This document shows positions 61 through 50,804 of a DNA stretch of 64,000 nt, one piece after another. Both the position numbers and the translations under genes were made by a program. Positions within the stretch are counted from its first letter, which is position 1. Each line of letters starts with the position of its first letter. The notes beneath the pieces were generated by a model. It saw only the letters and a list, made by a program, of their open reading frames with translations, had not been told where the DNA came from and did not search any database. This DNA is from Obelidium mucronatum (lineage: Eukaryota; Chytridiomycota; Chytridiomycetes; Chytridiales; Chytriomycetaceae): positions 248,001 through 312,000 of the forward strand of contig JAIVFH010000022.1 in the NCBI GenBank assembly GCA_025765595.1. Reading direction: 5' to 3'.

Positions 61-1079
61 ATATCCTGAAATCAAAGTGTATGGTATCGACTTGTCTAAC
101 ATTGGTTCAAGCAATTCGCCATACTCCTTCTCGTATGCTGATCCATCGAAACCTGATCTGAATCAAATGAACTTCAAAATGAACCTTACTATGACTCTGG
201 GAACGTACAACCCGAACTCTTACGATTTTAACGTTGAGCAGATTGATTTGATTGTGAGTTTGTTTTGGGTGTTTTCTTTTTCATTCTCTAGTGCCGATAA
301 CTTAAATTTTCTATTTTTTCGGTTTCCTCTTTTAGGCCCGAATGATGGTTAATAGATCGGTTGTTTTCGAAAATCGTCTGACAACACCTCTCACCTCGTT
401 CCAAGAACTTGTGAATATGATTGGATTGCCACCAACAACCGCTGGATACTACGGCAAGAACGACTCTATCGTTGGAACTTCCCACTATGGAAATATTGTT
501 TTCCCAGCCAGAAAAACAGTCAACTACACGATGCTGTTTTTGCTTGATTACACTCCTGACCCTAAACTGGGACTGCTCAAGGACCCGACTATTCTGGAAA
601 TCGCTAGCGTCTGTGGTATCAACTCGAAAAGTGGTGTTCAAAGACCAATGATCATCCACTATGCTGCTACCTCCATCATTACATCATTGAAGTCTTTGGG
701 CTTCAACCCTGTTTTGGAAAACGACATCAAGATCAAGTGCCCATTCTCCCAAGATCAGATTACGGCCGTTATTAGATCGGTTCAAAATGGAAAAAGTATT
801 ATGGATGCTTTATCGACCGTATTCGGAGGCGGTGAAGGATCTGTTGCACCCCCACCAGTTATTCAAATTCCAGACACTCCACCAACCACTGGACCAGTTC
901 CAACTGAAGCTGTTGGTACAACAGCCCGAGTTGGTACCACTGAGTCCCACAGTTTGTCTCCCACCCAAACCGTTGGTCCATCAGATTCTGTGCCCACTGA
1001 TGATTCGGGTATCCCCACTGATGTTCCCGAGGCTACAACTACCACCAGAACGGCTAGAAGGACGACTACAGCCGCGTAG
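61..1079 (+). CDS. LEA2-like single-pass membrane protein, paralogue 1 (5' truncated by window)
   Basis: Two exons are visible (61-253 and 336-1079), giving 311 residues. The upstream exon with the cytosolic tail and membrane helix lies outside the window. Position 61 follows a TTTTTTAG acceptor and completes the Arg codon that precedes the YPEIKV motif, as in the paralogues. The ectodomain carries the family landmarks: IDLSNI, LGTYNPNSYDFNV, the exon junction DLI|ARMMVN, KTVNYTM, DPTILEIA and CPFSQDQITAVI. The C-terminus is a Pro/Thr/Ser-rich tail. LEA2-like is inferred from the hydrophobic strand pattern around NPN. The gene is first in a head-to-tail array. Unlike copies 2, 3 and 5 it has no third intron before the tail. 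Function is unknown; a surface protein is likely. Confidence 0.8.
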
Positions 1080-1296
1080 ATTTAGGGTTGCAAACCCTGT
1101 TTTTTCTGTTCTCCCTACAGAGCGTTTTCTGTTTTTCTTTTTTATTCCTTTTTTTGTCTGTCAATTATCTGAAAATAAATACTTAGAGCACTTACACTGA
1201 TCTTAAAAAAAATATTTGATTGATTGGTTTAGAATTGATTAAACACCGGCTTAAAAAATTTTAAAATTCAAAAATTTCGTACTCGAAAAGCAAATT

Positions 1297-3054
1297 ATGC
1301 AAGAAACACCAGAGACGCATGTGGCTGTCCCCGCCCCATCGCAGCCTCTTGCACCAAGTAGAGATGACCTTGCTCCTTCGGTACCTGCTGCAGCTGACTC
1401 TGGTAGGCCTGTCGAAGCTGAAGCTGAAGTTGCCGGACAGGTTCAAGAACACTTTGTTGCCCCGCCTCTCCCTGCTGCTCAATACCAACAGTTTGCTGCT
1501 TATGATCCAGTTCAATACCAACAGTATCAGCAGCACTTCTACCAACAGCAGCAGCAACAGCAGCAGCAGCAGCAGCAATACTATGGGTATGTCCAGCAAA
1601 ACCAGGTCTATGCACATGACCAGAACCAGCAAATGTCGCAAAACTTTAGCCAGTACGGCAGCGAAGCGGCTCTCCAGGCACCACGACTAGATTCTCAGCC
1701 TGGAGGCGGCAGTCAGATCACTGAACGCAGTCTGCCACATATTGCAACCAAAAAGAGGTTCGATTCTGAAGCGATTGGTTTCTTTATGGGAAAGTACCTC
1801 TGCTGCTGCTGTCCCAAAAACAAAAAGCATCGCATGATTTGTGGAGGTGTTGTTTTGCTTGTCCTCATTACTGTTGGTGTGTTGTTGGGTATTTACATTC
1901 CAAGGTTTGTGTTCCACAAGGGGCCTTTTTATTTCCATCTCAATATCTCTTGTTTATCTTTTGACAATTATTTAGAATGCCGGATATTCAGGTCTTTGCA
2001 ATTGACTTGTCGAACATTGGCGCCAGCAATTCCCCCTACAAGTTTTCGTACACTGACAAGGCCAATCCAGGGCTAAACAATCTCAACTTTCAAATGAATC
2101 TTTCAATGAGCTTGGGTGCTTACAATCCAAACTTTTACGATCTGAACGTGGACCATATGGATTTAGTGGTGTGTTGGAATTATTTGAATTTGAGTTTTTG
2201 AAAGTGGTTATTCTAAACTCTTGCTGTTGTTTTTTTTACAGGCTAGAATGTTGGTCAATACATCGGTTGTATTTGATACAAAATTAACAACGCAATTGTC
2301 TGCTATGGGTGCCCTTGTTGAAGTTGTTGGAGCACCACCTGTTCGCCCACCAGGTTACAGCCCATCCAACAATTCAATTATTGGAACAGGGGCTTACGGA
2401 AAGATTCTCTTTCCATCAAAGACGTCCGTCAACTTTACTATGATTTTCTTCCTCAACTATACTGTCGACGCAAAGGTGGGCATTCTTGCGGATCCAACGA
2501 TTTTAGAAATCGCAAGTTCTTGTGGGGTGACGGATCGTCAGGGCAAGCCGCGGGCGATGCAGATTCATTACGATGCGACTTCGTATATTCCCACCATTTC
2601 TGATTTGTTTGGAAGCCCGACTATTTCAAGCAAAATTGGAATCAAGTGTCCCTTTTCGCAAGCGCAAATCACTGCTGTTATTCGTGCCGTTCAAAATGGA
2701 CAGGTTTGGTCTTTTTTTTTTTTTCAAGTCCTCGCTCTTGCTTCATTGGTTGATTGATTATTAATTTCCGCTGTTCAGTCGGTTATGGATGCGTTTAGTA
2801 GCGTCTTTGGTGGTGATTCTAATATTCCACCTCCACCGATTGTTCCGGATTCGCCAACTTCTTCTCCGGCCACGACGAGGACTGCGTCTGCAACTGCGAT
2901 TGCGAGCACTACCGCCGCTGTAACAGCTGCTTCGGAAACAACTGACGTCGTAGAGCCTACAATTGTCATCTCGACCACGACTCGTGTGGGAAGAACTACG
3001 ACTGTAAGGCCAACTACTACAGCAGCACCTACTACCTCCTCTGCGAATGCGTAA
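1297..3054 (+). CDS. LEA2-like single-pass membrane protein, paralogue 2
   Basis: Four exons (1297-1904, 1976-2168, 2242-2703, 2779-3054) sum to 512 codons plus stop. The cytosolic N-terminus is acidic and then Gln-rich (polyQ near residues 84-95). It is followed by KYLCCCCPKNKKHRMICG, a cysteine/basic cluster that looks palmitoylatable, then one hydrophobic helix ending GIYIPR. The ectodomain starts MPDIQVFAIDLSNI, contains SLGAYNPNFYDLNV and NFTMIF, and has a cysteine pair (SSCGV, IKCPFS). The tail is Thr/Ser-rich. Introns fall in the Arg codon after the helix, at DLV|ARM, and at QNGQ|SVMDA. The domain layout resembles plant NDR1/HIN1 and yeast Tag1-type LEA2 membrane proteins, but no specific function can be assigned. 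Confidence 0.82.
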
Positions 3055-3233
3055 TATAACCGGAATTTCGGTGTTTAGAGATTTTATGAATAAAACCTGT
3101 ATTTACTTTTTTCCAAGAAAGAAAGGCAATTTGAAGGGAAAGCTTGTTTTGTCTTTGTCCATGCAAAAACAAAAAAAAATCTCAGTCAAAACCTCATAAC
3201 AACAAACAACCACCAACACGCACGCACTTGCCG

Positions 3234-4864
3234 ATGGCCTCCCAAACATCCCAGACGCCGCTAATTGCCGGACCCGAGTCCGAGCAGCCCGCCATGTATC
3301 CGCAGCACAACTACCCGCAGGCGCATGCGGCGCCGTATGCTGCGGCGGGCGACGCCCAGCCGCGGAATCCGTACGGGTACCAGCCACAGTCGCCGCCGCA
3401 GACGCCGCCGCCGCCGGCCGCCGCCGCCGCCTACGCCAGCGCCTTCGGCGTGCCGGCGGCGGGCGCGGGCGACATCTACGCGCGCCTGGACAGCCACGCC
3501 GCGGCGCAGGCGAAAGACCTGCCCGCCTTGCCGCTGGACGCGCGCGCCGGCCGCCAGCAAAGATCAGCGCTGGAAAAGGCGGCAGCCTGCTGTCTGCCAA
3601 AGAAGCGGAAGCATCGCATCGTGTGCGGCATCGCCACGCTGGCCGCCGTGATTCTGCTTGCCGTGCTGCTGGGTCTCTTTATTCCAAGGTATGCTGGTGC
3701 TGGCGGCCGCACTCTCACTGCCACATCAATCAATCGCCGGCACTTAAAAATTTTTATAAAATAAGGTACCCAGAAATCAAAGTCTACGCCATCGATCTTA
3801 CAAACTTGAATGCCACAAATACTCCGTACCTGTTCACATTCAAAAACCCAAACAACCGTAATTTCAATGAACTTCGCATGCAAATGAACTTGACAATGCA
3901 CGTTGGAACATACAATCCAAATTTGTACGACTTGAATGTGGACCACATTGAGCTCACTTCCTATATGATGGCGAATACTTCTGTTCTGGAAAATATCCGC
4001 TTGACGAGTAATCTCTCCAGTTTTGGACCTTTAGTGGGAGTTGTTGGACCACCTCCCGTCCGGACAATTCCAAACTACGTCCCTTCTTCAAGTGCCAAAA
4101 TTGGAACCTCTACTTATGGTCAGATTGTGTTTCCAAGCAAGCAATGGGTCAACTACACCATGATTTTCCAACTCGATTACACACCCGACGCCCAAGTGGG
4201 GATTCTTGCAGACCCAACTATTCAAGAAATTGCAAACGCATGTGGAATTACCGCAAGAAACGGAAAGTCTCGGTCAATGAAGATTCATTACACCGCTGCA
4301 TCCACAATTTCTTCATTGAAAGCAATCGGTTTTACTCCAGAGCTGTCTGGAGACTTGGGTATCGTGTGTCCATTTTCACAGAGTCAAATTACAGCTGTTG
4401 TGAATAAGGTGCAAGCTGGTCAGGATGCATTTGCGGTAAGTTGTTTAATTTTTTTTCAGGAAAATCTTCTGTTTTTTTCAATCTTAAAATTTTTCTAAAC
4501 CAATCACGTGCAGGCAATCCAAGACGTTTTTGGCGGGGGCGACGCCAGCGCACCAGTTCCACCCCCTATTACGATTAATCCGCCGGCGGATCCGGTTATT
4601 CCAGTTCCAACGAATGAAAGCGATAACAGCGGTGTTGTTCCAACATCCAGTCAAAACTGGTGGGATAATCAACCTAACCAGTCCACCGAGACTTTTGGGC
4701 CTGCTTCTCCGACATCGTTTATCGACTCCCCTACATCCACGGAGTCTATTCAAGTCGTCTCAACGACGACTGCGAAACCTACCACCGACGCACCTGTCCA
4801 GACAGTGACAACACAAGTTGTGACTGCCACAGCTACCAACATTGCACCTCTTGCCTCCACTTAG
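3234..4864 (+). CDS. LEA2-like single-pass membrane protein, paralogue 3
   Basis: Three exons (3234-3688, 3766-4435, 4514-4864) give 491 residues. The start at 3234 (MASQTSQ) is preferred over an in-frame upstream ATG at 3144 because the extra 30 residues look like untranslated sequence. The N-terminus is encoded by a strikingly GC-rich stretch (about 3280-3680) and is Ala/Pro-rich. The cysteine motif is reduced to AACCLPKKRKHRIVCG. The helix ends GLFIPR and the ectodomain begins YPEIKVYAIDLTNL. This copy has lost the second family intron (HIELTSYMMAN is read without interruption) but has an intron at QDAFA|AIQDV, a position not shared with copies 2 or 5. The tail is Pro/Thr-rich with NQPNQST repeats. 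Confidence 0.82.
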
Positions 4865-4970
4865 AATTTCAACCTCATTATTTCTTTCAATAAAATGCCT
4901 CTTTTTTCCCTGAACTCAAGGTTGTTTTTTTCGCTCCTCGATTTTTTAATTTATTGCTATCTGCGCTGAG

Positions 4971-6298
4971 ATGGACACAAAGGACAGCGATCAAACTTTG
5001 ATAGCAACAGCAGCCGAACAGGAACGCCGCCAGGAGTCTCCTTCAGATGTGAATTCAAAGCAGCAACAGCAGCAGCAGCAGCAGGATACTCTGCCAACTG
5101 TTCGTGGCAACACAGCCTCAACGGTAGTCGCTCAGAGTTCAAACGAAGCATCCAATCTACAGCAAGAAAGCGGATTCTTGAGCAGTACTGGCGGTAAAGA
5201 GTATCTTGTACCAGATGCCGCAGTGCTGGAAAAGGGCTTGATCAAGGAGGCTGGTGATGATGTCAAACAGAAACCAGTCTCCAAGTGGGAACGGTACTTG
5301 TGCTGCTGCTGTCCAAAACGACCATTATATCGAATCATTTGCGGTTCAGTTGTGTTGGCTGTATTGATTGTAATTGGTGTTCTTGCCGGAATCTACTTTC
5401 CAAGGTAATTAGTTGTTCAAAATCTACCTAACCCCCCTCCAAAGCAATTACTAAAGCATCTTGGGTTCGTTTTTCTTTTTCTCGTTGGTTCGTTCGGGAT
5501 TGACAGATTTCCAGATACACAAGTGTATGATATTGACTTGACAAACTTGGCTGGACGCTCGTCCGCCTTCCACTTTAGCTACTTGAATGACACAGAAGAT
5601 CTGAACAAGCTGGTCATTCAACTGAATTTGACTATGCATGTTGGAACGTACAACCCCAATTTATATGGATTGACTGTTGATCAAATCGATTTGGTGGTAA
5701 GAGAGTGCTGTATTTTTTCTGTGTACTGTATCTAAGCACCGTCAATGTTTATTATTTCATTTTACAGGCCAGACTTTTGGTTAATACCACATACACTGCG
5801 GATCCATTAAGGACCACGTCATTGATGTCATATGGCTCCCTGGTTAAGGTTGTCGGAAAACCACCAGTAAACCCCAACCCAGGGACCTACTTTGGAAAGA
5901 ACGATTCCATCATCGGAACAGCTAAAACAACTGAATCTATTTTCTTCCCATCAAAGACTTTGGTCAACTACACACTCAATTTCGAGCTCTACTACACACC
6001 AGATCCACAACTGGGTCTACTCTTGGATCCAACCGTGTTGGAACTAGCCGATGGTTGTGGAATCACGTCTCGATACAAACCTCCGGGTCGTCCAATGCGA
6101 GTCCATTACAAGGCAACGTCCACGATTTCGTCCTTGAAGGCTTTGAACTTTGCTCCGTCGTTGGAAAGCTCGCTCTTGATTCGGTGTCCTTTTGATCAGT
6201 CTCAGATTGATGCTGTGATTTCCTATGTCAGTCAGGGATTATCTGTCTCGGATGCATTGAAGGTTGTGTTTGAAGGAGCACAGGTTGCTTTTGGTTGA
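4971..6298 (+). CDS. LEA2-like single-pass membrane protein, paralogue 4 (short tail)
   Basis: Three exons (4971-5404, 5507-5696, 5768-6298) give 384 residues, the shortest complete member. The N-terminus contains a short polyQ run (near residues 23-30). RYLCCCCPKRPLYRIICG precedes the helix, which ends GIYFPR. The ectodomain reads FPDTQVYDIDLTNL, HVGTYNPNLYGLTVDQIDLV|ARLLVNT, LVNYTLNFELYYTPDPQLG and CGITSRYKPPGRPM. The protein stops soon after VVFEGAQ, so the Ser/Thr-rich tail of its neighbours is missing. It pairs most closely with paralogue 5 (shared ELYYTPD and CGITSRYKPPGR). The intergenic gap to the next copy is about 140 bp. Confidence 0.82.
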
Positions 6299-6438
6299 GC
6301 TGGGTTCTTAAAGTGAATCCGGGCCAGATTGAACTTTGTGCTTTCATGCGTAAAAAGTAAAGAAAAAGTAAAACCTGTTTGTAAGCGGTGAAACGGTGAA
6401 CCAGGCCATCAAAAAAAAAAAGGTTCAGTCAAAGCACG

Positions 6439-8242
6439 ATGCATTACCAACCACCACCAAAGAGAGACGAGGACCAACAACAGTTGGAACAAGAGCATGA
6501 AGGATACCAAATGTATGAGTATTCTCGTCCCCAGCATGGATTCATTCCTCCCTCAAGCCAGCAGCAACCGCTACTAAGCGACTTCAGCCACCAAGATCAC
6601 TACCATGTACTATACAACCCATACGACTATTCTCGCTCTCAAGTAGTGGAGCAAGAACAGCAGCAGCAGCAACAACAACAACAGCAGCAACACCAGCTCT
6701 ACTATCAACCCGATATCAACTCATACAATCAAAGTGTTTTAAACCAGGACCCGCATTACCATCCACATCCACAGCATCAACAACAGCACTTCCTTGTATC
6801 GCACGACCAAGGATTCCTCCGAAACAGTCTGGGAAGATCACGTGTAGTTCCAAATACTGCGTTCACTCCTCAACCATTTGACAAGCTCCTGGAAACCGAA
6901 CTTCCCGCAAAAAAGGAAAAACGGAGCATTGGTTCTTGTTTGAGCCGTCGTTTATGTTGTTGTATCCCGAAAAGACCATTGCACCGGATTATCTGTGGTT
7001 CTGTAACGCTTGCCGTTTTGGTGGCTATTGGTGTTGTTGGAGGACTTTATTTCCCGCGATTCCCTGAAATCAAAGTGCATTCGATTGATTTGACGAATTT
7101 GATGGGAAGTAGCTCGGCGTTTCGGTTCAGCTATCTCAATAATTCCAGGAGTTTGAATGATATGGTGCTTGAAATGAATCTGACCATGAATGTGGGGACA
7201 TTTAATCCTAATCTTTATGGGATGACTGTGGATGAGATCAATTTATACGTTGAGTTTTTTTTTTTTTTTCTTTCTTAATTCCTTTAAAAAGCCCCTAAAA
7301 ATGTTTTTTTCCAACAGGCTCAAATGATGGTCAACACTTCGTACGTGGGCAATCCGCTAAGAACTACAGCTTTGACGTCATATGGTTCGCTAGTCAAACT
7401 TGTCGGTACTGCCCCTTCAGCATCGTATGCCACAGGATACTATGGGAAAAACGATTCCGTGATTGGAACCGCCAAATCAACTGAACCAATTTATTTTCCT
7501 TCCAAGGCGTGGGTCAATTACACCCTCAACTTTGAGTTATACTATACACCGGACCGCAAACTGGGACTACTGTTGGATCCAACGATTCTAGAAATTGCGG
7601 ACGCCTGTGGAATCACTTCACGATACAAGCCACCAGGTCGTGCAATGAAAATTCATTATACTGCCTTGTCTACTATTTCGGCGTTGAAGGCTCTGAATTA
7701 TGCGCCTTCGCTGTCGAATGATTTGCATATTATTTGCCCGTTTAGTCAAGACCAGATTAATGGAGTTATCAACCTTGTCCAACAAGGTAACCCCCAAAAG
7801 AAAAAAAAAACAATTAATGTAATATCATGGATTTTCTGACGTTTCCTTTTTGGATGAGTTAGGTGTGAGTGTTACCGACGCGCTGAAAATTGTGTTTGAA
7901 GGTGCCACTGCAGTTCCAAACAGTTCTGGCAGCAGTAGCAGTAGCAGTAGCAGCAGCAGTAGCAGTAGCAGCAGCGGCAGCAGCAACAGCAACAGCAGCA
8001 GCAGCAGCAGCAGCAGTGGCAGTGACGGCAGTACAAACGGTGGTAGCAACACTGAGAGTGCATCACCCACCAGTGCCAGCTCCGAAGGCTCCGATTCCAA
8101 AACTGCTGACACGGTGTCCCCCTCTAGCTCTAGTAGTGATAGTAGCAGCAATGTTGCCGGAAGTGGGTTGCCTGGTACCTCGAATGGGGATGTCGCTTCA
8201 AACTCAAATCAAGAATCTGGCGCCGAATCCAGCTCCTCCTAG
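6439..8242 (+). CDS. LEA2-like single-pass membrane protein, paralogue 5 (poly-Ser tail)
   Basis: Three exons (6439-7248, 7318-7786, 7863-8242) give 552 residues. The N-terminus is Gln/His/Tyr-rich with a polyQ tract. RRLCCCIPKRPLHRIICG precedes the helix ending GLYFPR, and FPEIKVHSIDLTNL follows without an intron, so the first family intron has been lost. The second intron uses a GTTGAG donor after INLY. A third intron lies inside the Gly codon of QQ|GVSVTDAL. The tail is a long poly-Ser/Gly tract (AGC/AGT repeats, about 7925-8030) followed by more Ser-rich sequence, plausibly an O-glycosylated stalk on the outside. The role is unknown. Confidence 0.82.
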
Positions 8243-8421
8243 TTTCCCTTTTTCTTCTTCTTCTTTTTTTTACCTAGCGCTCTTGGTTTGCTTTTTCCCT
8301 TGTGCGAAGCGTGGATGGATGGTGTATGGTGTATGGTGTATGGTTTGAGTAAAGCACATGCCTTGCTGTAAATATTTACTGGATGAAATTACAGATTTTT
8401 TTGGGCTCAAATCACATTGAA

Positions 8422-10281
8422 ATGCCACCACGCAGCAAAAGCAAAACAGGCCGCGACATTGACAACGGCGGTCGCAGCGCCAGTCGCACCGGCGGCAGCC
8501 GCAACGACAACCGCGACAGGGACTATGACTACGATTACGACAATGGCGGCAGCCGCCGGGGCAACGGCAATGGCTACAGAGAGAGTCCCGAGTGAGTAGC
8601 GGCTTGTTGGCTTCATCCCTCCTGCATTGCGCTCTTGGAACGCTGGAACGGGCTGCAGACAACCACGGGCGGGCGATCGCTTGGAGGGCACTGCCGATGG
8701 CTGCTTGTAAATTGTAATGGTGCGAGGGCTTGTGCAGCATGCGAACGCAAGGCAAAGCCATTGGCTGCCTATGCCCAATCTGTGCGCTCCTGAGTCAGCT
8801 GGAATGCAAGCAGCAGAGGCGGCAACCATGCTGTGAAGCCAACACCAATTTTGGTTGTTGGTGTCTTTGGAACCCTGATCACACTCCCCAAACTGAAAAA
8901 ATTCCTTCAATTTCCTCTTTTTGTTTAAACCCTAACGTTTCTCTCTCTCGAAACCCCAGACCTTCAAAGCCAAAGAGCAGCACCCGCAGAGAAGAAAAGA
9001 GCACAACCCGCCGAAACTATGATGATGACAACTACGTTGCGCGCAGTGAATCCAGAAACAACTCACGGAAGGGTGCTAGTTCCCCTCGAGAACAGCGTGA
9101 TGTTGATTACACGCCTTCTCGTCGAGGTGGAAACCACCAAGACAACTACCAGGATGATTACAACTACAGCAGCCCATCAAAGAACAATTACCCGTCGGAT
9201 TCAAAGTGGGGTGACCAAGACGATTACGATGTCAAGAGTACCAGCTCTGATGTTTACCGTCGTGATTTGGAAGATCATGGCTACGGTGGATACCCTGATG
9301 AGAAACCATCTTGGAAGCAAAAGGCGGAAAGATTCCTTTGCTGCTGTTGCCCAAAGAACAAGAAGCACCGTATTATTTGCACAGTTGTGATTCTTGTCAT
9401 TTTGATTGCTATTGCTGTTCCAGCAGCCCTCTTCTGGCCAAGGTAACCCGCTTTTTTCCTTGGAATTCGTCCATGTTTTTTAAATGCCTTTTTTTTCGTA
9501 CAGATTTCCCGAAATCAAAGTGAACTCCATCAACTTGGGTAATATTGACAAGGGTGCCTTCTCTTTCAGTACTCCAAACGACAACGGTAACTTGAACGAG
9601 ATGACAATCATGTTGTCACTTGATATGTACGTCAGCACATACAACCCTAATGCGTACGGATTGCAAGTCGATTCCATTGATTTGATTGTAAGTAGTGCTT
9701 TTTGTTGTGAACTTGAGTTTTTGAGTTGACTTTTTTTTTTTTGTCAGGCCAAAATGATGTCGAACAAGACATACTTGGCGGATGCTCACAAAGTACAACC
9801 TCTTGGTTCTTTTGGTTCTCTCGCAGCTGTTGTAAACCAAAAGGGTGCCATTCCACTCGCTTCTAAAAAGCCATCGGGTTACCAACCAAGTTACACAGCC
9901 AACATTGGTACCGCCAACATCTCCAACATTTATTTCCCCCCCAAGTCTTGGGTCAACTATACCATGACGTTCAATCTCAACTACACTCCTGATCCGTACG
10001 TTGGTATTCTCAGCGACCCAACTGTCGCGGAAATTGCTGATGCTTGTGGTATCACATCCCGATACGTCCCTGCAGGAAGACCAATGAAGATTCATTATGA
10101 CGCTCAGTCTACCATCAGTGTCTTGAAGCCATTGGGATATGCGCCATCCATTTCCAACGATATCTACATCAACTGTCCAATTAAGCAGTGTCAATTTTCT
10201 GCAATTGTAGGCGCGGTTCAAGGAGGAGCCGATGCATTTGCTGCCTTGCAGAATGTGTTGAGTAGTCCTGAGTCATGCTAA
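8422..10281 (+). CDS. LEA2-like single-pass membrane protein, paralogue 6
   Basis: Four exons (8422-8591, 8960-9442, 9504-9687, 9748-10281) give 456 residues. The start MPPRSKSK at 8422 is chosen because the ATG 13 codons upstream lies in leader-like sequence. The N-terminus is charged with RD/DY-rich repeats. A 368-bp first intron, the longest assigned in this array, splits it. RFLCCCCPKNKKHRIICT precedes the helix ending ALFWPR. The ectodomain reads FPEIKVNSINLGNI, YVSTYNPNAYGLQVDSIDLI|AKMMSNKT and CGITSRYVPAGRPM. The protein ends shortly after the NCPIKQCQF motif with no long tail. It is closest to paralogue 7 (both STYNPN..YGLQVD). Confidence 0.8.
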
Positions 10282-10456
10282 GGGTCGCATCCCTTTGTTT
10301 TTAGTTGTGTTTTTTTTTCCCCTTGTTTTCTCTCCTTTCTTGTTTGTATGACCTAGAATGTTTTTGTGTGTGTGTGTTTTTTTTAGAAGATGGTTGGAAT
10401 AAAACATATTTCGGTTTATTAAAATTGATTATCGAAAAATCGATATTCCAAATTCC

Positions 10457-11588
10457 TCAAGCTGGAGCCCCTATAACAGAACCAACCACCCCCACCACAT
10501 TTTGAAAATCAACTGTACAACCCGCCAAACGCTGACTCCACACTGGCGGCAACTGGAAAAACTTGCCACCCGGCGATTCCACTTCCTCCAATTTTTCAAC
10601 CTTTTTGACAACCGTGCAGTATTCTCCTACAGAAACTCCTGTTTCCGAGTCAACGAACCCAGCCGCCAATGTGCTTCCACTGGTGCCCGTGTATGCTTTC
10701 GGGTTCGTTCCAGACGGATTTGTGGCGGCACTGACGAGTGCCTGGGCAGAGTTTATAAAGAGGTTGGACATGTCTGAGATGGTTGTGCATGTGGGGCATG
10801 GGAACATTAGGAGGGGGAACGCGCCGTAGTAGAGGCGGCTTGTGCCGGTTATATTGAATTCACTGATATCAATTGAATCTGATTGTTTTTTTTTTAGTCA
10901 TCGGAACATCGGAATTCCAAAAAAATAAAATAAAATAAAATAAAAAATAAATAAATGTAAGAACTCAACTGCGGTAATAGCAAAAGTCAGTACACGAGTT
11001 CAAAGTGCCCACCGAAAGAGAACCAGTGAACAAGTACAAAGGAAAGTATGTGTTTGATGTTGGGATAATTGTGCCGTCAGCGACCAACCCCCTTTGAAAA
11101 CACAAAAAAGCCGAATTTGTTTAGCCGAATTACAGAAATATATATATCCACTCTTTTACCTCAAAAGATTCTGAATGTCTTCGACGTCATCGTACACAGG
11201 CTGGCTGTTTGTTACGACAAACACTGAAGAATTATATGTCACACTTTTTACGCCATATTCGTTCACTGTGTGTGTGTATGTATGTGTATGTAGAGGCAAT
11301 GTGGTTAACGCTCCTTCTTTCCTTTCCAAGAACTATACATTTCAAGTAGGGAGTCTTGACAAGCTCAGAATACAAGAGATCCAAAGACGGCTGAACAGCC
11401 GCAATCTTTGTCCCAATCTGACCCCAATAGATTGGCTGTACAACCATATCCTGAAAGATCTTCCCGCCAAGATATCGCGACCCTGTGAGACTGCCGGCGG
11501 CATAGACGCCATCTGATGATAGCAATAGGAATAATAGACGAAGGAGAATGATTCCTGTTGTTTTAAAGAAGAAGGACGTGTATATCAT
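10457..11588 (-). CDS. secreted EXORDIUM / phosphate-induced-1-like protein
   Basis: Four exons on the minus strand (11588-11339, 11223-11160, 11091-10970, 10878-10457) give an open frame of 285 residues; I placed the junctions by hand. A signal-anchor or signal peptide (ILLRLLFLLLSSDGVYA) is followed by SRYLGGKIFQDMVVQPIYWG, which resembles the GGPV..V.V..IYWG start of the family. Later landmarks are TYFPLYLF, NSCTDFCYYR, LYYGAF, a cysteine pair CPTC, an SAATNP segment, and GEYC near a C-terminal VWSQRLAGC. These match the order of motifs in the fungal/plant EXORDIUM family (PF04674-like). The acidic residues usual around the (A/V)TNP motif appear replaced (SAQALVSAATNP). It sits antisense between LEA2-like copies 6 and 7. 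Confidence 0.62.
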
Positions 11589-11668
11589 TTTCTATGTATT
11601 TTTGGAATGTAAATCACTTTTGTAAATCACGTCTTGTGTGTGTTTGTGTGTCTTTTTTTTTTTTTTTT

Positions 11669-12323
11669 TCAAGCCAGCAAAGCAGCAGCCAAAAGAGAAC
11701 CCATTGATAGGAATACAGAATCAGCCGAACTCTTTGAAGTAGTGGCAGCAACAGTAGTAGCAGCCGCTTTACTTGTGGTAGTAGCAGCAACAACAGTAGT
11801 GGTTTGCGCTGGGGCTGCGATAACCGTTGGGGCAGCCGCAGTAGTACCCGCAGCAGCAGCAGGAGCTGGAGCAACCGTCAACGCAAACTTCATGCCGAAT
11901 CTGCAATGTGCACCATCATGCACTGGACAGACAATGTAGTAGGTTCCTGGGGTGGTAAGGGTATAGCTGAAGCTGGCAACGAGGCCATTGGAAGTCAATC
12001 CAAGAACTGGTGGCGTGGCGTCGTTTACAGTGCATGCTGCATATTGATCGGACGTGACATCAACGATGGAGTGGAGACCGGCTGCACCCAAGTCAAAGTT
12101 AAGCTATAAAAAAAAAACATTTAAAATGATGATGGGGTGGTGAGTATTTGAAGTTAAGGGAAAGGTTAAACAAGTGGGTAAACTTTACAATATCTCCAAC
12201 TGTGGCGGCGGTTGGGGCGTTTTGGAAGGGTGCTGGGCTACTTCCGGTAGATGCAATGTTGAAGGTTGCTGCATTGGCACCAGTGATCGAGGCGAGAGTG
12301 GCAAAGAGGATCGAAGAGAGCAT
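11669..12323 (-). CDS. secreted cupredoxin-domain protein with GPI-type C-terminus
   Basis: Two exons (12323-12189 and 12103-11669) give 189 residues. A signal peptide (LFATLASITGANA) leads into a plastocyanin-like domain: GDILNFDLGAAGLHSIVDV, then YYIVCPVHDGAHCRFGMKF. The His in LHSIV and the Cys, His and Met in CPVH..AHC..GM are placed like type-1 copper ligands (inference from the family). The domain is followed by an Ala/Thr-rich linker and a hydrophobic C-terminus (SMGSLLAAALLA) typical of a GPI-anchor signal. The intron interrupts GDI|LNF. A cell-surface copper protein is likely, which links it in theme to the BIM1-like cluster near 52-54.7 kb. Confidence 0.78.
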
Positions 12324-12888
12324 TTCTTGTATTATTATTTTTTTTTGTGGAAATTGGCCAGGGAAATTGGGGAATCCACTTTTTTCCCCTTCTCGGAATC
12401 ACATGATGATGTGAGCGTCGTGGCTGCAAGTCTCAAGGAGCATCTAGTGTTGGATCACCAATCTGCTGCTGGATAAGCCAATGTTTTATCTCAAACGCAA
12501 AAACTATTTTAGAGTAAAGCAAGAACGAGTTTCAATTATTGAATATTTCTGATGAATTTTCTCCTTGTGAATTCACTTCATATTGAAGTTGAAAGAAACC
12601 AAATTCTGTGGATATGTTTTTGGTCGACCAAGAAATAAAAAATAGACTCATCAATTTTCATGCAAATTTCATGCCGCATATATTTAAATATTACAACAAT
12701 AAATGGATTAAATTTTCATCACCATTTTTCTATTTCATTTTTTTGATATCAGATATGACATTTTTTTAATTTTTAGTCGGAATGACTTTTTTTCAGTTTC
12801 ATAATGACCCCCCCTTTAAACCTCGTTTGATTCCTTCTCGAAAGTCATTTTACCCCCCCAAAAAAAACCAACACCAAGAGACCACGCA
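12324..12888. other. AT-rich intergenic region, no gene seen
   Basis: About 565 bp with low-complexity A/T stretches. It separates the cupredoxin gene (transcribed leftward) from LEA2-like copy 7 (transcribed rightward), so it probably holds both promoters. I see no ORF, RNA gene or repeat that I can support. Confidence 0.5.
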
Positions 12889-14661
12889 ATGCCTCCTCTA
12901 GACGATGAATACAGCACCTTTGATTACAGCGGCAGGTCCGGTTACAGCAGCAACACCAACGGCAACAGTAATCAAGGGTATGATCCGCGCTACCAGCAAC
13001 AACAAGCTTTTCAAGGATACGGCGCCCACCACCAGCAACAACAACAGCAGCAGCAACAACAGCAACAATACAATAACTATTATTCTAGAAATGCCGCTCT
13101 TCAGCAAAAGTTAGTTTACACTTATTTTTTCTTTCCTTTGATTCCGAGATTTCTTGAAACCTAACGCCTCCCTCAATAACTCTTTCATTAACCAGCTATC
13201 AATACCCACCTACTTTTGTTGGAGGAGAAAGCAACTACGACAGTGACGATGATGATAGATACAGCCGACGCACTGCTGCTACAGCCGCCACCGCCGCCGC
13301 CAGTGACTCACCCGGTTTTGACCCGTTCGCTATTAGACAAAGTCCTGCTGGAGCTTCTGGATTGAGACTACCACCACCCAGTGCTCTTCACCGTCGAATG
13401 TCCAGTCCAACGAAAAGCCATGCAGACGAATCGTACTATACTACCACTACCACTACTAGAAAAGAATCGAATATCGAAGACGATGATCAAGTGAGATTAG
13501 TCAAGAATGGAAGCATCCCGTCGTCGGAACGTGGCGGTGGATATCGGCCCACAAGAGAGCAGAGGCTTGGACTTCCTGAAAAGAAGAGTGTGGCTTCGTT
13601 GGTGGGAACGTACATGTGTTGCTGTATCCCCAAGAGGCCCTTGTTTCGAATCATTTGTGCGGTTGTGGTGTTGCTTGTTTTGGGGGCTTTAGGGGTGTTG
13701 GGATACTTGTACTTTCCAAGGTACATTTTTTTTTTGTTTGGTTGTTGTGTTTTTGATAATTAATTTTTGTTTTTAATTTATTATTTTTTTTTTTTATAGA
13801 TTTCCTGTGATTCATGTAAACTCGATTGACTTGCAAAATTTGCAGAATGGAGCCTTCAACTTTTCGATTCCTGATGGGACTGGGAATTTGAATCATTTGC
13901 AGATTCAGTTGTCAATGAAGATGGAGATTAGCACGTATAATCCGAATTCGTATGGATTGCAAGTGGACGTTATTGATTTGACGGTGAGTAGTCTTTGATG
14001 CACTACCGACTGTAAATACTAAAAAAAAAAAACCAAATCACAAAAAAAATTTCAGGCACAAATGATGGTCAATACGTCATACATTTACAATCCATTGAAA
14101 ACGCAACCATTGACATCATTTGCATCACTTGTTGGAGCAGTGGGACCACCACCAAGCGGCAGAGAAAAGTTCCCAAACTACCGTGCCAGCAATAGTTCTG
14201 TGATTGGAACAGGACAAGTGAATTCAATCTACTTTCCACCGAAAAAGACTGTAAACTACACAATGATGTTTCTGTTGAACTACATGCCGGATCCGGTCGT
14301 TGGACTGTTGGCAGATCCAACAGTTTTGGAGCTTGCAGATGCATGTGGGATAACATCACGGTATATGCCGGCAGGAAGGCCCATGAAAATATCGTATGAA
14401 GCAAAAAGTGTTGTGACGGCGTTGAAGCCGATTGGGTACGCGCCTGTGATTCGGAATTCGATAATGATCAATTGCCCCGTGAGTCAGCCGCAGATTCAGG
14501 CTGTTGTGAAGGCAGCACAGTCGGGACAAAGCCCTATTGCAGCGCTGCAGGAGATCCTGGGAGGAGGGACTGGGGCGGGGCCCACGACACTGGGAACGGC
14601 GACGGAGGACGAGGCGGCAGCGGCAGCGGCAGCGGCAGCAGCGGCGGCAGGCCGGCGCTGA
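12889..14661 (+). CDS. LEA2-like single-pass membrane protein, paralogue 7
   Basis: Four exons (12889-13109, 13196-13720, 13800-13983, 14056-14661) give 511 residues. The N-terminus is Tyr/Gly/Gln-rich with a polyQ run, then acidic and Ser/Thr-rich. TYMCCCIPKRPLFRIICA precedes the helix ending YLYFPR. The ectodomain reads FPVIHVNSIDLQNL, ISTYNPNSYGLQVDVIDLT|AQMMVNTSY, KTVNYTMMF, DPTVLELADACGITSRY and INCPVSQPQI. It ends in a poly-Ala run (GCG/GCA codons) and RR. It is separated from the other six copies by two minus-strand genes, and is most like copy 6. Confidence 0.82.
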
Positions 14662-17700: not shown

Positions 17701-18246
17701 CACGTCAGCACAAACTCATTGAGGAGCGTTTTGGGGACCCCACCATCGTCGTCGTCGTCGTCGTCGTCGTCTTCAACGTCTCCAGTAGTGGGCCGTTCCA
17801 TGATGGGGAAACTGTATCAACATAATCATCACCACCAACCAAACAGAAGTAGTTCTCTTTCCGCGATTGAAGATGACTTTGAGGCGCAAGTGATTGCATC
17901 TTATGGTGGAGCGGCAGGAGTAAACAGTATCAACAGTTTGGATCGCGTGTCGTCGTCAACATCGGACGAACAATCTGGTGGTAGTGCTGCTGCTGCTGCC
18001 ACGGCAGACCATGGGTTGCCAAGGATGAAGCCGGGTGTAGTAGGAGTGGTTGTTGATTACGATGATGAGAGTACAACAGAGTATAGTGGGGGTCCTGGTG
18101 CGTTTGGGGGTATACAAAGTGCGAGTAAATTGAAGCTGAGGAACAAGAGGTTGTCGATTGAGAGTGGTGGTGGTGGTGGTGGGGTTGGGAGAATGAGTTT
18201 GGATAGTGTAGAGTATGTGGGTGGGCCGGGGGTTTTTAAGACTTGA
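14785..18246 (+). CDS. Ran1/Sks1/Vhs1-like serine/threonine protein kinase
   Basis: Three exons (14785-15430, 15552-15790, 15913-18246) give 1072 residues. The N-lobe shows KKGEGAFSTVFAA (glycine loop) and APVAVKRI (catalytic Lys), interrupted by a long Ala/Asn/Ser insert. The hinge is FVMEYCGM. The catalytic loop is YHRDLKPENILID, the magnesium motif LADFGLAT, and the activation segment GCGSVRYM|SPECLG, followed by NDVWSLGVILINLV. This is the pattern of fungal Ran1/Pat1, Ksp1 and Sks1/Vhs1 kinases, which act in nutrient and meiotic control. After the kinase domain comes about 600 residues of disordered Gln/Ser/His-rich sequence. The first exon is very GC-rich while the rest is not. Intron 2 is a polypyrimidine (TTTC)n run. 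Confidence 0.85.
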
Positions 18247-18859
<613 letters not shown>

Positions 18860-21305
18860 CTAAAATTCAATCAATGGCGCATCTTGGGCAGGGGACGGTG
18901 CTTGTGGCGGTGGCACCTGGTGTTGGTGGTGTTGTTGTGGTTGTGGTTGTTGGTAAAGTTGTGGTTGCAAATGCTGTTGACCCAAAGGAGGCACCGCAGT
19001 TCCATAAGTATATTGAGGTTCCTGGGTGGTTTGATGCTGTTGTTGTTGCTGTTGTTGTGGAGGAGCGGGAGTGGTGGCATAGTTAGTTTGCGGTTGAGCT
19101 TGGGGTGGCGCTTGAACTTGAGCAGGGTCAACAGGAGGAGCAAACTGAAGCCCTTGCAGTGCCTCGAATGCTTGAGGTTGCTTTTGTGGAGATGGTTGCC
19201 GTTGGGCTGGAGCTTGCTGTTGCGGTTGAAGGGGGGGTTGACCTGCGTAATCAACCTGAGGTGGGGCATATGTTTGTTGTTGCTGCTGCTGATATGGATC
19301 TGGTTGCTGTTGTGGTGGAGGTGGAAACTGCTGATACATAGAGGGATCGTGCTGTGGTGGTGGTGCATATTCTTGTTGCGGTGGTGCATATCCTTCTGGA
19401 ACATATCCTCCCCACGCCTGTTGGGGCGGTTGATTGGCATACATGGGTTGTGGGCTTCCCTGGCTTTGTTGGTATGTTTGCTGAGCTGGTGGAATATAAT
19501 AGCCCGCTTGCTGTTGTGGGGGTGGAGCACCCCAATATTGCTGTTGAGGTGGCATACCATAGCCACCTCGCATATTCAATCTTTCCTGAAGCATCCGATC
19601 GTACATTTGCAATGAGTCCGAAACTTTCTCATTGATTTCCATGCTCTTTCGATACTTGCCAACGGCATCGTCCATAGACCATTGTAGTTTAGGTTGGAGT
19701 GCAAACAGTTGACTGTAAAGGGTCTGAAAAGAAAGAATAAGTTGTCTGAAAAGATATTCTTTTTATGACTAACCGAAATCTGAGAATGTGACATAACGCC
19801 GATGCCTCTTTGTTGCACATCAGCTTCCATTCGTTCAACTAAATCAGCAAATAGCTTCAAGTTATCAATCTCAATTCTTGACAGTTCGTTGGCGTTAGGT
19901 GCTGGAGTAAGGACAGACTCTGTTCCGGAGGCAGATACAGTTGTTGGTTGAGAGGGTGCCTCTGCGTAACCACCAAATCCAGAAAAGGTACTGCCCCCTG
20001 TACCGCCACTGCTTGTCGATGGATAGTTGACGCCAGATTTGTTATTCTCAGCGATTTTTAAATCTCTCAAAGATGCTTCAATGGCCGCTTTCAAGTCTTC
20101 ATCTTCTTCGTCGCTAGCAAAGTTGACTTTCTTGGGAGCAGGGGAAGCAGTTTTTCTTGCTGGAGGAGCTCCAGATGATGCAAGCGAGGCAGCAATTGCT
20201 CTTTCAATATCTTCTTGTTCTTTTCTGGCAGCCGAATCCACATTTGAATCATATCTGAAGGTCGTGTTGGCAGCAGCAGCTGGTGCGGAAATGGCACCAG
20301 CAGCTTTTGCGACAAGTTTCAAATGACAGCCATCACAAACACGGACAGGCTCGGTGATACCCAAGTGAGGAAGCGGTGCGGTTTTCGACGAGCATGAATG
20401 ACAAAATGTTTGACCACAGTTTCGACAATGATGCTTGCGAGTAAATGTTGTGAATTGGGTTCTGCATCGCATACAGACGTCACTCTCTGTCCATTCTGGA
20501 GCCTGTTGGTGCAATTTTCGTAGGTGAGCGCCAATTAAACCAACAAAGCACACATACAGTAGTTGTATCGATCATGATTGAAGAGACTTCAGCCTTCTCG
20601 ACAGGAGGAAAGGGAACACCTATATTGCTCGCGTAAGAAAGCCGATTGAAATCGAGGGGACTGTTTTCTCACCCTCACGCTTCAATGTATTGTATACTTC
20701 GCACGCGTAGGACAATTCGGGTTTTCCTTTGAATGAAAGACCCCAGTTTTGGATCAAAGCCAAAGCAGCTTTTCGAACAGCCAAGTCAGTCAATTGAAGA
20801 GACCCCCCCAACCCAACTAATGTATCCATGAAATCTTTTGCTGCGACTTCCACCAAGAAATGGCTTCCGCTATTTTTAGCACATGTATCCACCAGCTAGG
20901 TTATATGGTTAGTAATTCCACGTGGCGTACAGCACACACCCCTGTCTCTCCCCCCACAGCGCACCTTAATGGCAAGCAGTTGCACATTTGGATTTTTGTA
21001 CACAAGTCTCCGTTTGATGGCCGCAGCCGCATACTTTGCTGGAGTCTGCTTGGACTTGATTTTATCCGCAATATCCAAGTTTAAGAACATGTCTTCCGAG
21101 CCTAGCGGGAGATTCTCCGAAGTTGCCTTTTCTAAAGAGATGCGAGAAAGTGTGAGAATGGCTGTGTTGGCTGTGTTTTGATTGAGGCCCTCTCCTCCAC
21201 CCTTTCGCTCTCCCCGTTTCTTCACGTTCTGCAATTTCTAATTATCTAAAACCGTTACTAACCGACAAGTTCATCAAAGGGATTCGCTCCGAAAAACAAG
21301 GACAT
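18860..21305 (-). CDS. VPS27: ESCRT-0 subunit Vps27/HRS (VHS-FYVE-UIM)
   Basis: Multi-exon minus-strand gene starting MSLFFGANPFDELV|EKATSE at 21305. The VHS domain follows (KRRLVYKNPNVQLLAIK|LVDTCAKNSGSHFLVE). The FYVE finger has APEWTESDVCMRC, RKHHCRNCGQTFC and RVCDGC, which bind zinc and endosomal PI3P in this family. Two ubiquitin-interacting motifs follow (DIERAIAASLASSG and DLKAAIEASLRDLK). A helical segment and a Gln/Pro-rich tail come next, ending DAPLIEF, a clathrin-box-like terminus as in yeast Vps27. Junctions such as IMIDTTT|APEWT restore the family reading. The protein sorts ubiquitinated cargo at endosomes. Its start lies 137 bp from the start of the divergent EFHC-like gene. 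Confidence 0.93.

Positions 21306-49248: not shown

Positions 49249-50804
<1,556 letters not shown>

Follow-up and report, generated by a model that had tools for sequence, protein, structure and literature searches.

What does a chytrid do with ten related membrane-protein genes lined up on one strand, and are the copies a fast-changing surface coat or a set of specialised parts? The question arises in Obelidium mucronatum, from a 64,000-nucleotide stretch of contig C22 (JAIVFH010000022.1; C22:248001-312000, in a genome of 48.3 Mb), hereafter the window. A sequence-only reading had described seven tandem paralogues at window positions 61-14661, each with a palmitoylation-type cysteine patch, one membrane helix and a LEA2-like ectodomain. 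Seven copies (D to J) do lie there, all on the plus strand, with D cut by the window edge, but the array is larger: hand-built spliced models give ten paralogous genes, A to J, on that single strand over C22:242245-262661, with A, B and C upstream of the window at C22:242245-247067. On balance, we lean towards reading this as an old, ordered array of ten single-pass paralogues with a LEA2/TMEM106-type sandwich that binds a lipid or other ligand. This is one overall judgement, set between those on its two parts: we hold the architecture (predicted fold and layout) with high confidence, and the mechanism (lipid- or ligand-binding sandwich, sorting patch and partner-recruiting tails), argued by analogy, only tentatively.

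All ten copies read openly through every exon, with no internal stop, and their introns are of the GT-AG kind. Introns recur at two places: eight copies (not B or H) have one within the Arg codon closing the helix, and nine (not F) have one downstream of an IDLV-like stretch. The splice models of the copies in the window, all on the plus strand and in window coordinates unless marked, are as follows.

Gene D, fourth of the ten: first exon C22:247191-247981, upstream of the window; window exons 61-253 and 336-1079; protein P0009.
Gene E, 1297-3054: exons 1297-1904, 1976-2168, 2242-2703 and 2779-3054; Cys patch and membrane helix at 1792-1904.
Gene F, 3234-4864: exons 3234-3688, 3766-4435 and 4514-4864; patch and helix at 3576-3688; protein P0001.
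Gene F ectodomain, intron-free, 3767-4435: modelled with AlphaFold2, model residue 1 at 3767.
Gene G, 4971-6298: exons 4971-5404, 5507-5696 and 5768-6298; patch and helix at 5292-5404; full-length structure model (P0037).
Gene H, 6439-8242: exons 6439-7248, 7318-7786 and 7863-8242; patch and helix at 6946-7059; Ser-rich tail.
Gene I, 8422-10281: exons 8422-8591, 8960-9442, 9504-9687 and 9748-10281; patch and helix at 9330-9442.
Gene J, 12889-14661: exons 12889-13109, 13196-13720, 13800-13983 and 14056-14661; patch and helix at 13608-13720.

Five of the hand models, those of A, B, D, F and G, agree exactly with NCBI models P0011, P0022, P0009, P0001 and P0037, respectively. The model of C is longer than P0023, and that of I has another start than P0027. 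Public protein searches found 61 proteins (7 from Obelidium), none of them a counterpart of E, H or J. When the genome was searched at the protein level with the F ectodomain, there were 19 exon matches with E ≤ 0.001, every one inside the array; weaker relatives elsewhere were found with more divergent queries.

Each copy has the same order of parts: a low-complexity N tail (95-226 residues, 3-24% Gln), a Cys/basic patch, a single helix, a sequon-rich ectodomain and, optionally, a C tail. This agrees with the single-pass layout and palmitoylation-type patch first proposed, and the shared motifs hold up across 44 family cores (10 from Obelidium and 34 from relatives, after three short rows were dropped). 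A pair of ectodomain cysteines is invariant (first in 44/44 letters, second in 43/43), and copy I has four ectodomain cysteines. Four patch columns are Cys in 33/40, 35/40, 37/39 and 30/39 letters, and the last patch Cys is present in 40/40. The patch is degenerate in B, and F has just two cysteines ahead of its basic run. The Pfam surfactant protein C propeptide family, which we take to represent a palmitoylated Cys-plus-helix pattern, was weakly matched by 9 of the 37 rows of our alignment A1 (best E 7.4e-4). Going by its pattern, the patch is probably S-acylated. Three sequons are conserved (34/44, 44/44 and 43/44). The ten ectodomains together hold 48, versus 26.2 ± 4.6 after shuffling (maximum 42 in 2000 shuffles), an excess consistent with transit of the ectodomain through the secretory pathway; the N tails hold 8, with 8.8 expected from shuffles. 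A Ser/Thr-rich or low-complexity C tail had been claimed for most copies, and this is true of D, E, F and H (Ser/Thr-rich) and of J (short and Ala-rich); G and I have none.

Structure prediction gives this ectodomain a fold. The AlphaFold2 model of the F ectodomain has a pLDDT of 85.3 and a pTM of 0.80; the full-length G model places the helix at residues 118-142, with residues 1-98 at low confidence. Neither lacks the proposed sandwich, and for both the top Foldseek match is the luminal domain of TMEM106B (PDB 8b7d). A TMEM106B-type helix and Cys pair recur, with the helix and the two invariant cysteines at corresponding places: the ends of the aligned ranges, 203-255 for F and 350-255 for G, fit a superposition of Cys253 on Cys201 in F and on Cys348 in G. 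The predicted models show the LEA2-type beta-sandwich expected of LEA_2 (PF03168). The best predicted fold for the array ectodomain is thus a LEA2/TMEM106-type sandwich.

On which side of which membrane would this sandwich sit? The best-surviving alternative is in effect the preferred reading with its compartment fixed, and the odds of the two overlap: the proteins could be endo-vacuolar, like TMEM106B and Vac7, with the sandwich in the lumen of the vacuole or endosome, tuning organelle lipids or size, and not at the cell surface. The nearest solved fold does belong to a lysosomal protein, and yeast Vac7 and Tag1 are placed in the vacuole in the part of the source available to us (PMC12297828). 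The N tails of the ten copies, however, show no excess of either of two sorting motifs (dileucine, 1 versus 0.7; YxxPhi, 9 versus 12.5). Furthermore, the Cys patch beside the membrane and the tails rich in Ser/Thr are reminiscent of plasma-membrane NHL proteins and wall-facing proteins. We regard a vacuolar or endosomal location as a serious possibility, though not the one we would favor.

The 61 close relatives come from seven genera, all Chytriomycetaceae: Obelidium (7), Siphonaria (6), Rhizoclosmatium (10), Podochytrium (9), Chytriomyces (21), Physocladia (2) and Entophlyctis (6). They were hand-sorted from three protein searches, one of which scored the 7998 candidates with the most shared words. 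With a consensus query, the weakest match had an E of 5.3e-55, although matches to E 1 were requested; since the search depends on shared five-letter words, distant relatives in other fungi may be missed. Within those limits, the family is not spread evenly over all fungi. Among the matches listed, no account of it appeared in the open-licence literature, and neither "late embryogenesis" nor "LEA" occurs in the main text of a chytrid atlas, as far as that text was available (PMC8887899).

In a 63-row tree (P0058 left out; P0010, P0060 and P0061 long-branched and unsurely placed), eight of the ten Obelidium copies cluster with counterparts from other genera. A, D, E and F each have a Siphonaria partner at 100/99, as does G at 92/93. 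H falls with Rhizoclosmatium (90/76), I with Podochytrium and Rhizoclosmatium (99/98), and J with Podochytrium and Chytriomyces (100/100). Named members include P0041, P0014 and P0006 with E; P0002, P0004 and P0005 with F; and P0028, P0048 and P0049 with J. The "DE" label of the Chytriomyces rows depends on a weak fork (89/67). Some groups carry their own features: the C tails of the six D and E rows are 25-57% Ser/Thr, 9 of 11 I rows are tailless, and a CCC-x-P-x-RPL patch is common to the four J rows, its RPL occurring also in G and H.

Gene order points the same way. With locus tags on one contig standing in for DNA, the order was collinear with Obelidium in all five genomes tested. The share of chance arrangements that would fit is 2/360 for Podochytrium, 2/6 for Siphonaria, 2/24 for C. 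confervae, 2/12 for C. hyalinus and 2/2 (uninformative) for Physocladia, so that Podochytrium alone is telling by itself; the two Chytriomyces genomes are not independent. Two genomes stayed outside the test: that of R. globosum, with six proteins on a single contig, and that of Chytriomyces sp. MP71, whose protein numbering we do not regard as positional. Six of nine Podochytrium relatives and three of six Siphonaria relatives lie on the array contigs, figures in which fragmentation and true dispersal are not distinguishable. Judged from the tree and tags, the array is old and appears to have kept its order among related genera.

It is tempting to see in the variable tails a diversifying surface family, as the sequence-only reading did, with rapid copy turnover and variation under selection, like antigen or adhesin arrays. 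The tails do vary more than the core: in nine well-split cross-genus pairs, identity is 60-81% for the ectodomains and 28-45% for the N tails, and 14-45% for the C tails in the seven pairs that have one (E/P0014 and I/P0040, mis-split by the motif rule, fall outside these ranges). B and C, sisters at 97/94, resemble duplicates confined to Obelidium. But low-complexity tails vary in most proteins, and the core behaves otherwise. By NG86, nonsynonymous divergence (dN) of the ectodomain is 0.26-0.44 in six paralogue pairs; synonymous divergence (dS) is 2.7 and 3.8 for two of these pairs and undefined for the other four. The Obelidium copies require 9 label changes on the tree, 8 of them forced by well-supported forks (mean of shuffled labels, 9.5), and the locus tags are collinear. 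Old cross-genus groups, collinear tags and dN set against saturated or undefined dS lead us to reject a fast-evolving antigen array for the core, and for the family as a whole we consider such a history improbable. As far as these comparisons go, the core is under constraint and the tails are loose. The array has the look of specialised parts, not of a fast-changing surface coat.

Nor is the layout confined to the array. A divergent family member used as query against the Obelidium genome, the only genome searched for this type, found a gene on contig C46 by a weak match (E 0.005), and other contigs hold further relatives.

C46:4238-5312 (L023:2238-3312): WW-domain gene, three exons, 311 residues; gene model.
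C431:7862-8955 and C15:296723-297920 (L025, L026), minus strand: a near-identical pair of genes that combine a WW domain with a LEA2-like part; C15 copy modelled, WW at E 0.016.
C509 and C62 (L027 and L028): helix-plus-NPN-sandwich loci lacking the Cys patch; each contig has two or more exon sets, nearly alike between the two contigs.

The C46 protein begins with a WW domain (Pfam E 3.5e-4, under the cut-off; PDB WW domains down to E 2.7e-7). After it come a Cys patch, a helix with WPR.P at its end, and a sandwich that is shorter, has both cysteines and carries SPN in place of NPN. Its first intron occupies the array's second intron place in identical phase. With hhalign, helix and sandwich matched the array at a probability of 97.5, or 98.6 once the C15 relative was added; taken by itself, the sandwich's second half scored 19.3 bits against the array profile, so the match is not carried by the helix alone. 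The C46 and C15/C431 proteins are thus like the array in patch, helix end and two-Cys sandwich, and differ in their WW domain, shorter ectodomain, about 21% identity and location off the array. WW domains function in the cytosol, and one on the N side supports an N-in topology. The C15 and C431 genes are perhaps alleles on separate contigs; their intron past the helix is packed with short GC palindromes of the type CCGCCGNAGGCGG. Part of the C62 locus matched LEA_2 in Pfam at E 0.17. A weak match on C517 was rejected, as its frames fail to match the array profile. Because other contigs carry the same layout, it is not unique to the array even within this genome; going by these gene models, it is general in Obelidium, with the array as one branch that has expanded.

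Could the sandwich be a mere lookalike, of the immunoglobulin (Ig) or fibronectin type III (Fn3) kind and unrelated to LEA2? Several results weigh against our preferred reading. The Foldseek TM-scores against 8b7d are modest (0.42/0.58 for F, 0.27/0.58 for G). Arrestin, GH2 and transglutaminase domains score just below TMEM106B: in VIA, TMEM106B reaches a Z of 10.7 with the G model versus 9.8 for the Ig-like domains of GH2 enzymes, which for the F model trail by less than 1.5, so that Z by itself does not single out TMEM106B. The Cys-pair correspondence was read off range ends, without residue-level computation. No sequon excess was found in the C tails (5 versus 8.2), which therefore gain no support for secretory transit. 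None of the ten copies reached the Pfam cut-off for LEA_2 (best E 0.15, in 1 of 37 A1 rows, with nothing else matching it at E up to 1), and for this reason we speak of a LEA2/TMEM106-type fold and claim no membership of LEA_2 for it.

The other family searches were also negative. The Pfam scans covered all ten copies at E up to 1, with C as the truncated NCBI model and H minus its last 106 residues. They gave no match to TMEM106 (PF07092), Vac7 (PF12751) or DUF3712 (PF12505), none of which is among the 16 families listed for A1. A LEA_2 search of the genome gave zero matches, though 4 of 14 controls were detected. DNA searches of it for DUF3712, TMEM106 and Vac7 found no match, with controls equally silent, so absence is not shown. 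A PDB sequence search returned 14 matches, chiefly to the low-complexity tail.

Set against the lookalike, TMEM106B aligns over 141 of 147 residues of the G model versus about 115 for the GH2 domains, and carries the matching helix and Cys pair. Small whole-domain rows are few in the F model's VIA list, and the plant LEA2 structures 1xo8 and 1yyc, which score lower than TMEM106B, are two of them; VIA lists include many unrelated Ig-like domains, and absences from them carry no evidential weight. An NPN or SPN motif, which we take to be a LEA2 mark, is present in the array and in its same-genome relatives. We therefore give an unrelated Ig/Fn3 sandwich little credence. LEA-type desiccation protectants were rejected, as those are the soluble, disordered LEA groups and the array domain is predicted to be folded and membrane-anchored. 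A thraustochytrid LEA protein, set aside as a parallel, belongs to PF02987, a different family, according to the part of its description available (PMC12221091).

Several neighboring features were noted in passing.

L001:2386-3165, minus strand, immediately upstream of the array: Endonuclease V gene (PF04493, E 1.2e-51).
Window 10457-11591, minus strand, between I and J: two open frames, no Pfam match at E ≤ 0.1.
Window 11669-12398, minus strand, between I and J: small gene with a plastocyanin-like match (PF02298, E 3.7e-4); by eye, its signal-like start and hydrophobic end suggest a glycosylphosphatidylinositol-anchored cupredoxin.
Window about 18000-18400 and about 50200-50330: long CA/TG dinucleotide runs, whose frames read His-Thr or Cys-Val repeats.
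Window 18860-20571, minus strand: frames resembling by eye an endosomal protein of the Vps27 type, with a FYVE finger and a tail rich in Gln.

How might the array proteins work? Their anatomy is like that of the N-in, single-pass LEA2-type proteins TMEM106B, Vac7 and plant NHL, and the mechanism we propose is carried over from these. The low-complexity, often Gln-rich N tail would lie in the cytosol, and the probably acylated Cys/basic patch at the inner membrane face would set membrane domain and clustering. The helix would hold the sandwich immediately beyond the membrane, on its outer or lumenal side, with the sandwich's own helix pinned by a likely disulfide and its surface bearing N-glycans. 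The sandwich could bind a ligand, perhaps a lipid, as has been suggested for TMEM106B and Vac7; paralogue-specific tails could recruit different partners, and in some copies a Ser/Thr-rich tail would follow the sandwich. It is a long shot that this is an ordered ancestral array with position-specific paralogues, each serving its own life stage or membrane site (zoospore, rhizoid or sporangium), in a membrane-lipid or wall-interface system restricted to one chytrid family. TMEM106B and Vac7 have been studied in animals and yeast, and their direct function is unsettled. Ten natural variants, with orthologue-group-specific tails and apparently kept order, would make it possible to ask what in such a scaffold is general and what is specific to partners. 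A chytrid family without a name gains a predicted fold, which by itself does not settle the fold's role.

The claim that no fungal system has this layout was too strong, given the genes on other contigs and three known systems that are, as far as the available parts of their descriptions go, built alike. Vac7 and Tag1 are single-pass proteins, and we know of no Cys patch or array in either; the array is likened to them by description only, its proteins having no Vac7 Pfam match. Nor, to our knowledge, does TMEM106B have a juxtamembrane CCCC patch or a Ser/Thr tail. This human lysosomal type II protein is described as sharing the N-in disordered tail, single helix and glycosylated helix-plus-disulfide sandwich; unlike it, the array proteins form a ten-gene array, and they have no detectable sequence match to it. 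In the part of one account available, TMEM106B is a LEA-2 superfamily protein predicted to transfer lipids and to have a lipid-binding groove, and Vac7 and Tag1 are fungal LEA-2 proteins of the vacuole (PMC12297828). Plant NHL proteins are likened to the array by layout, not by NHL sequences, and the array has no LEA_2 call. In the portions of the sources available, they have an intracellular disordered N-terminal region, a helix and a LEA2 domain outside (PMC12223711), and are named among S-acylated proteins (PMC5364179).
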